DNA of 64,000 bases from Terriglobia bacterium (GTDB lineage Bacteria; Acidobacteriota; Terriglobia; Terriglobales; Acidobacteriaceae), in the NCBI GenBank assembly GCA_020072645.1, contig JAIQGK010000001.1, positions 372,001 through 436,000 of the forward strand, given 5' to 3'. The notes under the pieces are model-generated. The model saw only the letters and a program-made list of their open reading frames with translations, made no database searches and was not told the DNA's origin. Position 1 is the stretch's first letter; each line of letters begins with the position of its first letter. The position numbers and the translations under genes were made by a program. Positions 6,924 to 10,103 of the stretch are shown here, one piece after another.

Positions 6924-7342
6924 CTTCCTACTCCTTCAGGAATGGCCAATGGTCGCACGACTGTGGCTGGCAGGTGCGTTTTTCTCTTTCGGCGCTACCG
7001 GCTGGAGTAGCTAACCCGCGTTCCAGCTAGAGTACCCAGAGAGTTACCGGGGGTCAAGAGCAAAGCCCACAATATGTTGTGGATAAGTGCGCCTGACCAC
7101 AGGATGTCGCACCACTTGTGCAACCAGTGACCAAAACACTCCTGTGAGGTTTTATTTAAGAGGACGGAAGAATCGCGAGAGCTACACAAACTGTAGCGCG
7201 AATGGTGCAGGGAAGCAAGGTGGCTTAAGGCGCGAATTGGTACACCAGAGTGCAAGGGGCTAAAGGATTAAGGTGAATTGATGAGATCGCTGGGATCGCG
7301 CGTGATCGGAAGCGCAAGGCTCAAATGCGGCAAGAGGGGTTT

Positions 7343-7377
7343 ACCCGCGGATTTGCGCAGGTGAGCGCGGATAAAAA
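7343..7377. repeat. Dispersed repeat B, single copy
   Basis: Reads CCGCGGATTTGCGCAGGTGA followed by GCGCGGAT. It belongs to the same family as the facing pair at 44505-44669 and the copy after the cysteine desulfurase gene at 28389-28418. Confidence 0.55.
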
Positions 7378-7391
7378 AGCGGATCATGCAG

Positions 7392-7411
7392 GTCGTCGGG
7401 CAGGCCAAAGC
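7392..7411. repeat. 20-bp direct repeat of the M20 dipeptidase gene
   Basis: GTCGTCGGGCAGGCCAAAGC occurs here and at 8245-8264 inside the M20 gene, in the same orientation, bracketing the PhyH-like gene. On the minus strand both copies encode FGLPDD, and the following residues (LHDP here, NLHAP in the gene) are also alike, so this may be a remnant of a duplicated M20 gene end. Confidence 0.55.
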
Positions 7412-7417
7412 GCTTAG

Positions 7418-8134
7418 CTACGCGATCGCCAATTGCAAAGGCGCAGCGACCGTGTCCCGGGTTGCGTATTCGATGTGAAGCACGCGGCGAGGTTTGTCCG
7501 ATTGGGATTTCGACGAAGCGTGAATAAGGAGAGGTCGCATTACTATGACACCGCCCTGCTCGACCAAGCATGTTACATGCTCTATCTGGCCGACAACGGT
7601 TTCAACCTGCTGATCACTCAAAACACCCTGGCAATGGCTGCCTGGAATCACCCGCAGTGGACCATTTTCCTGGTTCGAGTCATCTAGATGTAGCCGAAGC
7701 GCCACAACCCTTTCCAACGCACTGGCTAGAGCGTGCGCATAAATTATGCCTTCTTTGGTCGACCATGGTCCCCAGCCCGGCGTTTCCTGTCTTTCGCGAA
7801 GTGGCAGGGCGGTGCCCTGATGCCAGGTAATCAGCCAGTTTGCCATCGAGGACTTGTCAAATAGTGTGGCTTTGAAGGGAAAAGCATCGCGGCCTAGAAC
7901 CGACTGTGCGATCCCAAGCAAGCGCAGATCCGCTGCCAGCTCGGCCACAACCGGATTGCTTAATAAATGTCGCACGCCCGCTCTAGTGCGCTGCGATGTT
8001 GACTCTTCTAAACCAAGGAGCAAGCAACGGATGTCTTCAGCAGTTACGACTTGCGGAACAATGGCGCAGCCATCGTCGGCAACGCGAAGAGAGGCAGCGT
8101 TCGGTTCTTCGATCTCCCGATCACGTGCGATCAC
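7418..8134 (-). CDS. Phytanoyl-CoA dioxygenase (PhyH) family protein with His-x-Gly in place of His-x-Asp
   Basis: 238 residues from a GTG, 17 bp after the M20 gene and probably co-transcribed with it. The fold is that of Fe(II)/2-oxoglutarate oxygenases: WHQGTALPLR at 104-113, GWGPWS at 121-125, LRLHLDDSN and NGPLRVIPGSH at 146-167, and MRPLLIHASSKS at 199-210 with the distal iron ligand His205 and a 2-oxoglutarate-binding Arg at 216/217. The proximal motif should be His-x-Asp; here it is His105-Gln-Gly107, with codon GGC (7816-7814) clearly read. Loss of this carboxylate normally abolishes hydroxylation, but it is also how iron halogenases make room for a halide. The substrate is unknown; a decayed enzyme is possible, although the frame is intact. 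Confidence 0.85.
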   Translation of the reverse strand: MIARDREIEEPNAASLRVADDGCAIVPQVVTAEDIRCLLLGLEESTSQRTRAGVRHLLSNPVVAELAADLRLLGIAQSVLGRDAFPFKATLFDKSSMANWLITWHQGTALPLRERQETPGWGPWSTKEGIIYAHALASALERVVALRLHLDDSNQENGPLRVIPGSHCQGVLSDQQVETVVGQIEHVTCLVEQGGVIVMRPLLIHASSKSQSDKPRRVLHIEYATRDTVAAPLQLAIA

Positions 8135-8151
8135 CAGATCACCTGATCCTC

Positions 8152-9525
8152 TTATGCTCCCAGCTTCTCAAAGAACCCGATGATCGATTCAATCCCCCGA
8201 TAGAAGTTGGGGATATGGAACTTCTCGTTGGGCGCGTGGAGATTGTCGTCGGGCAGGCCAAAGCCCATCATTACGCTGGGGATTTTCAAAACGTCCTGAA
8301 AATCGGTCACGATGGGAATGGAGCCGCCGGAGCGGATAAAGACCGTATCTTTCTTAAAAACGTCATGCAACGCCTCGGTGGCAGCTTTGATGTACTGATT
8401 GTTGGTGGCTACCACGCAGGCTGGGCCTTTGCTGAAGACCTTGACGTTCGTCTCAATTCCCTTGGGCGTCAGCTTCTTGATGAACTTGGTGTATTTCTTC
8501 AGGATGTCGTCAGGGTCCTGGTTGGGCACCAGGCGCATGGAGACCTTGGCAAAGGCGCGGGCGGGGATTACGGTCTTGGCTCCGGGAGCGGTAAAGCCGC
8601 CGGGCATGCCGTGGACTTCAAGCGTTGGGCGGGCCCATGTGCGATAGAGCACGGAATAGCCGGGTTCGCCGGTCAGCACTTTTGAACCGACTTCAGTCTT
8701 GCGGTAGTGCTCTTCATTGAACGGCAGGCGCTTCCAAGTCTTGAGTTCGTCTTTGCTCGGCGCTTTCATCCCTTTATAGAAGCCGGGAATCAGGATCTTG
8801 CCTTTGGAATCTTTTAGCTTGCTGATGATCTCGATGAGCGCAAAAAACGGATTAGGCGCTGCGCCGCCGTACATGCCGGAATGCAGATCAGTCTTGGCGC
8901 CGACGGCTTCGATTTCGGTATAAACCAGGCCGCGCAAGCCCACGCAGAGCGTAGGAAGATTGGGCGCGAAGAGCTCGGTATCGCAGACCAGAGCGAAGTC
9001 GGCTTTCAGTTTGGCTTTTTGCGCGCGGACGTAAGCCGCGATCGACTCGCCGCCAACTTCCTCTTCACCTTCGATAATAAATTTCACGTTGAGCGGCAGT
9101 TTGCCGTTGTGTCCACGCATGAGCGCTTCCACGGCCTTGATTTCCATCCAGAGCTGGCCTTTGTCGTCCACGGCGCCACGGGCGTAGATGTTCTGATTGC
9201 GCTCAGTGGGCTCAAACGGCGGCGAGAGCCATTCATTCAGCGGGTCGGGCGGCTGGACGTCATAGTGTGCGTAACAGAGTACAGTGGGCTTGCCCGGCGC
9301 GTGCAGCCAGTCGCCATAGACGAGCGGATGGTTCTTGGTTGGGATGACCTCAACGTTTTCCAGGCCGATGCGGCGCATCTCGTCGGCCACGAACATGGCT
9401 GCGCGGCGGACATCTTCTTTGTGCTCCGGCGCGGTGCTCACGCTGGGGATGCGGAGCAGGTCTTTTAACTCACCTAAAAATTTCTGCTGGTTTTCTCTGG
9501 CGTAAGTGACTGCGGATGAAGCCAT
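8152..9525 (-). CDS. M20 family dipeptidase
   Basis: 457 residues starting MASSAVTYAREN; the ATG at 9525 has GGAGG at good distance, whereas the open frame upstream to 9714 lacks coding character. This is a cytoplasmic di-zinc peptidase. CYAHYDVQPPDP around residue 81 gives the first metal His and bridging Asp region, IEGEEEVGGES around 150 holds the catalytic Glu and the next metal Glu, CDTE follows, and FGLPDDNLHAPNEKF near 430 carries the last metal His. The dimerisation lid lies between. No signal peptide is present. Family members cleave dipeptides such as carnosine-like or Cys-Gly substrates; specificity is not visible. Confidence 0.93.
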   Translation of the reverse strand: MASSAVTYARENQQKFLGELKDLLRIPSVSTAPEHKEDVRRAAMFVADEMRRIGLENVEVIPTKNHPLVYGDWLHAPGKPTVLCYAHYDVQPPDPLNEWLSPPFEPTERNQNIYARGAVDDKGQLWMEIKAVEALMRGHNGKLPLNVKFIIEGEEEVGGESIAAYVRAQKAKLKADFALVCDTELFAPNLPTLCVGLRGLVYTEIEAVGAKTDLHSGMYGGAAPNPFFALIEIISKLKDSKGKILIPGFYKGMKAPSKDELKTWKRLPFNEEHYRKTEVGSKVLTGEPGYSVLYRTWARPTLEVHGMPGGFTAPGAKTVIPARAFAKVSMRLVPNQDPDDILKKYTKFIKKLTPKGIETNVKVFSKGPACVVATNNQYIKAATEALHDVFKKDTVFIRSGGSIPIVTDFQDVLKIPSVMMGFGLPDDNLHAPNEKFHIPNFYRGIESIIGFFEKLGA

Positions 9526-9569
9526 ATGCGTCCTCCGGGACAGATGAATGAACCTTTCAGTATATCGCG

Positions 9570-10103
9570 ATGTTGCGGGTGAAGCTTTGTTGCGGGTACA
9601 ACCATATCGTGAAAAGCTCCTACTCGACGGCCGTAGCGGGTGTTGCGCTTGCGCTCCCCGCGTATTGGGGACTGATGCTGGATGGTGTCCCGACGCTCCG
9701 CTGCCCATTTCCAACGCTTACTGTCATCCCTGCGCTCTTTCTTTCGACAGGTCGATTGACCTGGCTCGCAGTGCTGGTACCCGCCGGATTGTTTTTCTTG
9801 TGGAACCCCGGCCTTTTTCATGGCAAAGCAGATATCCCGAGGCGCTCATGGATCTTGCTTTCCGTGCTGACGGTTTTAGCCGTTGTGTATTTTGCCGGTA
9901 GTTGGAGTTACGGTTTGCAATATCAAGGGAAGCGATTTACCTATGGTATTTGTGCGTTGAATGCGGGATGGCTGGTGCTTCTCTGGACGATCTTTATGTG
10001 GAGGGGGAACAAAAAGTCATTCACGAATAATCTGATTCTGCACTGGCTGCTGTTTGCCTGGCTTGGCTGGTATGCCTTTCCTTATCTCGGAGAGTTGCCG
10101 TAA
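9570..10103 (+). CDS. Membrane protein of unknown function
   Basis: 177 residues with five or six hydrophobic segments (about 20-38, 50-62, 63-78, 93-110, 127-144, 158-172) and short loops. I do not recognise a family. Codon use and the alternation of hydrophobic and charged segments make it a believable gene. A GTG at 9609 (VKSSYSTAVAG) could be the real start; neither has a clear Shine-Dalgarno. It is divergent from the M20 gene (44 bp between starts) and convergent with the VWA-domain gene. Confidence 0.65.
   Translation: MLRVKLCCGYNHIVKSSYSTAVAGVALALPAYWGLMLDGVPTLRCPFPTLTVIPALFLSTGRLTWLAVLVPAGLFFLWNPGLFHGKADIPRRSWILLSVLTVLAVVYFAGSWSYGLQYQGKRFTYGICALNAGWLVLLWTIFMWRGNKKSFTNNLILHWLLFAWLGWYAFPYLGELP

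Follow-up and report, generated by a model that had tools for sequence, protein, structure and literature searches.

Does a glycine in place of the iron-binding carboxylate mark a new halogenase, or an enzyme that has just been lost? The question is raised by one gene in the window (the whole stretch of 64,000 nucleotides of acidobacterial DNA analyzed here), for which the initial annotation had proposed a PhyH-family oxygenase with a His-x-Gly iron site and offered three explanations: a halogenase, a non-catalytic relative, or an enzyme recently inactivated by one base change. The gene itself holds up under analysis. It starts with GTG at position 8134 and its minus-strand translation contains no internal stops (Table 1), and the 238-aa product matches the Pfam PhyH profile (PF05721) with an E-value of 3.8e-17 and 63.7 bits (cut-off 22). 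An AlphaFold model built on an alignment of 27 sequences reached a mean pLDDT of 91 and a pTM of 0.89, and the PDB folds closest to it are proline hydroxylase H11, EctD, AviO1, SnoN/SnoK, GriE, and similar Fe/2OG enzymes. By both profile and PhyH-type fold, the open reading frame encodes a PhyH-fold Fe/2-oxoglutarate oxygenase homolog. EctD, H11, and AviO1—the nearest solved structures by sequence or fold—share this fold, yet are only ~17–22% identical to the window protein, and EctD has Asp where its Gly107 aligns. Two designed repeat proteins that headed the phmmer matches in the PDB (4rv1 and 4hxt) aligned via many tiny stretches and were dismissed.

Table 1 Coordinates of the oxygenase gene, its iron-site codons, and the adjoining gene in the window
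Feature	Position	Strand	Basis or remark
PhyH-family Fe/2OG oxygenase homolog, CDS	7418..8134	−	238 aa, GTG start
Codon 107, GGC (Gly); GAC/GAT (Asp, iron ligand) in relatives	7814..7816	−	Codon comparison
Codon 105, first iron-binding His, retained	7820..7822	−	Motif alignment
Codon 205, distal iron-binding His, retained	7520..7522	−	Motif alignment
Codons 216–217, Arg-Arg, corresponding to the 2-oxoglutarate-binding Arg, retained	7484..7489	−	Alignment
M20 dipeptidase, upstream neighbor; likewise in both genus orthologs	8152..9570	−	Context

The iron-site motif reads NWLITW-H105-Q-G107-TALPLRE, and phmmer places its WHQG onto the WHSD of the ectoine hydroxylase EctD (4mhr), which supports the register originally assigned. 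Translation and alignment likewise bore out the retained distal His205, the Arg at 216/217, and the intact frame. Of the 2-His-1-carboxylate triad typical of PhyH enzymes (H-x-D ... H), the protein thus has H105 and H205, with Gly at 107, and this combination of two His residues with Gly or Ala replacing the carboxylate is the ligand set of halogenase-type sites. SyrB2-type, WelO5, and BesD halogenases have the same arrangement of two His and a small residue (PMC8407142), but none gives a significant sequence match to the window protein, whose state moreover lacks conservation in a clade. Human AspH, too, has a two-His iron site without carboxylate (PMC13168262); however, it is absent from the sequence matches of the window protein, and the absence of the carboxylate is the normal state of that enzyme.

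To see how relatives fill position 107, we searched homolog sets from the genus, family, class, and phylum of the window (>1,000 genomes) and compared 111 distinct matches, a few of which are distant PhyH proteins. Asp occupies this position in 108 of them, and Gly in the window protein only. The two other exceptions are an Asn in the G681 copy, whose frame contains TGA and TAG, and a Thr in a partial match from G639 that lacks the His as well; a scan of genome contigs gave two relatives, both with Asp. No Gly107 clade was therefore present in the genus, family, class, or phylum genome sets, and the clade-level conservation of a carboxylate-free state expected of a halogenase is missing. The closest orthologs belong to an uncharacterized acidobacterial PhyH subfamily with the motif NWLVVWHQDTALPLR ... 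NGPLRVLPGTH, which is 50–66% identical to the window protein and shares its other invariant residues, with two genus relatives at the same locus, but has Asp at 107 where the window protein has Gly. The sister gene, in the congeneric genome G004 (66% identity, support 99/89), has GAT at codon 107, and the gene of a second congeneric genome, G002, has GAC. Since the syntenic sister carries Asp, the change falls on the window's own end branch, where the simplest history would be a single transition, GAC to GGC. The pattern of Asp in close orthologs and Gly in the window alone, which the initial annotation had named as refuting its proposal, holds at the species level, the comparison being with genomes of other species. 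In another ortholog (L027, from G211), a gap in the stretch aligned with residues 213–218 takes out the paired Arg (SQSER----LHIEY), a possible further loss of a cofactor-binding residue.

These comparisons bear directly on the halogenase reading, in which chloride or bromide would take the coordination site vacated by Asp107 and radical rebound would halogenate a small molecule. The retention of both His, the Arg pair, and every other invariant residue is compatible with it, and in SadA a single Asp-to-Gly change (D157G) indeed yields mixed activity, chlorination alongside hydroxylation (PMC8407142). Against it stand the lack of a Gly clade from genus to phylum, a score of 12.7 bits with the NCBIfam chlorinating-enzyme model (TIGR01762, SyrB2-type; cut-off 226.3), and the fact that neither phmmer against the PDB nor the 50 closest folds brought up a halogenase. 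The genome also holds no second subfamily copy, its only other match being a distant PhyH protein on contig 8. Published single-residue experiments point the same way: replacing Asp414 of prolyl 4-hydroxylase by Ala or Gly produced no halogenase (PMC2767507), a BesD-like lysine hydroxylase given only the Gly substitution did not halogenate efficiently (PMC13244439), and the plant halogenase DAH required several changes, its evolution crossing deep fitness valleys (PMC12346261), while its G226D variant hydroxylates instead (PMC7170919). Taken together with AspH, which holds iron with two His and water and hydroxylates without halogenating (PMC13168262), these results argue that H-x-G is neither sufficient nor specific for halogenation. 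No acidobacterial PhyH halogenase came up in a literature search. A lone H-x-G motif without conservation in a clade thus does not amount to evidence of halogenase function, since point loss or sequence error is the simpler account, and we consider a working halogenase at this locus highly improbable.

The genomic context tells of an inherited but unsettled locus. In G004 and G002, as in the window, the gene adjoins M20 dipeptidase and SMC genes, and the shared dipeptidase neighbor in the two genus orthologs shows vertical inheritance. The interval that separates the M20 dipeptidase gene from SMC (6924–8151 in the window; loci L152–L156) is variable, holding the PhyH gene in three genus genomes and other sequence in five, in which no PhyH remnant was found beside the dipeptidase. 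We also scanned the neighbors (Colicin V-type, SAICAR synthetase, YkuD, SMC, M20 peptidase, VWA, ZapA, YbjQ, and OsmC) and recognized no biosynthetic genes or cluster among them; that the recognized neighbors are housekeeping genes is a further point against a halogenase.

The subfamily as a whole is patchily distributed, with matches in three of nine genus genomes and in 53 of 398 family genomes. Several copies are broken: those of G104, G412, G681, and G175 contain stops, those of G064 (a one-contig genome) and G643 have split frames, and those of G013 and G117 an altered C-terminus, some of which may reflect faults in draft assemblies. Judged from this patchiness, the variable locus, and the broken copies, the subfamily is dispensable, which makes gene loss ordinary here. 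Two of the broken copies are L091 (G064:C1:1327900-1328800), with the split frame, and L102 (G681:C70:7917-8767), which combines two stops with Asn at the iron-ligand position.

Is the window copy, then, decaying? It shows one hallmark of decay, the loss through D107G of a catalytic residue kept by nearly all orthologs, and neither additional disabling changes nor a relaxation of constraint emerged when frame, invariant sites, and rate were examined. A leave-one-out count was made on 18 close sequences: of 50 columns invariant in all the others, the window protein breaks one (D107G) and leaves 49 intact, and the other sequences have 0 to 5 such breaks. Relative-rate counts between the window and G004, with G002 as outgroup, are even (16 and 14), and end branch lengths of 0.34 for the window and 0.43 for G004 give no sign of acceleration. 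From the 49 intact invariant codons, equivalent to ~111 nonsynonymous sites, any period of neutral drift can be roughly bounded at < ~0.027 substitutions per site (95%), a small share of the branch. Synonymous divergence from G004 is saturated (pS 0.82), so a branch dN/dS is not useful. The start region is retained as well, the GTG of the window aligning with an in-frame TTG of G004. With a single invariant site changed on an unaccelerated branch, any inactivation must be very recent; on these sequence grounds, Gly107 would be either very recent—strain polymorphism or error included—or tolerated by selection.

The same constraint data allow for a non-catalytic protein retained for a binding or regulatory role, a reading in keeping with the intact frame, the well-predicted fold, and the unaccelerated rate. 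Such a protein would have left His105, His205, and the Arg pair free to drift, though all are kept, and its state is found in no relative, making this role quite unlikely.

What probably happened is that an accessory oxygenase recently lost its iron carboxylate to a missense change, or else that codon 107 carries a base-calling or assembly error, which would look identical and which we count within the same explanation. In this acidobacterial genus, a PhyH-type Fe(II)/2-oxoglutarate oxygenase gene of accessory status would have been passed down vertically until one recent missense change, GAC to GGC (Asp107Gly), stripped it of the carboxylate ligand. Iron binding may then be too weak for the ancestral reaction, leaving a catalytically crippled protein and a gene presumably at the first step toward loss. 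Among the three options first offered, recent inactivation is hence the best supported: by Asp in 108/111 matches, with the one remaining aligned substitution to retain the His, an Asn, lying in a frame with stops; by Asp in the same-locus genes of G004 and G002 and the patchy, repeatedly broken subfamily; and by the failure of prolyl 4-hydroxylase D414A/D414G to yield a halogenase (PMC2767507). The 49 other invariant positions, the frame, and the start region, all intact on an unaccelerated branch, count against this missense loss.

If Gly107 is instead tolerated, the protein may be a carboxylate-free hydroxylase that holds iron with two His and water and carries out the old reaction at lower or altered efficiency. 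AspH offers the precedent (PMC13168262) and all remaining invariant residues are retained, but the carboxylate of prolyl 4-hydroxylase proved irreplaceable (PMC2767507), and what is a family trait in AspH is confined to a single genome here; we regard this as unlikely. Similarly improbable is the broader idea of a very young natural carboxylate-free Fe/2OG enzyme that arose by one base change from the PhyH oxygenase, whether as a halogenase or as a two-His hydroxylase resembling AspH, its active site otherwise untouched; within this idea, halogenation would take the smaller share. Were it true, the protein would be a natural one-step intermediate on a hydroxylase-to-halogenase route. Should the protein be active at all, the window (Gly) and G004 (Asp) genes would form a natural before-and-after pair for one iron-site substitution in a hydroxylase.

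Finally, the gene start, including its GTG, sits inside an 8-bp tandem repeat (GGTGATCN; window 8111–8151, minus strand). Allowing ≤1 mismatch, GGTGATCNGGTGATC occurs 102 times across the genome, compared with 0 for a reversed control, and runs resembling this start-region repeat are found at the equivalent place in G002, G006, and G001.
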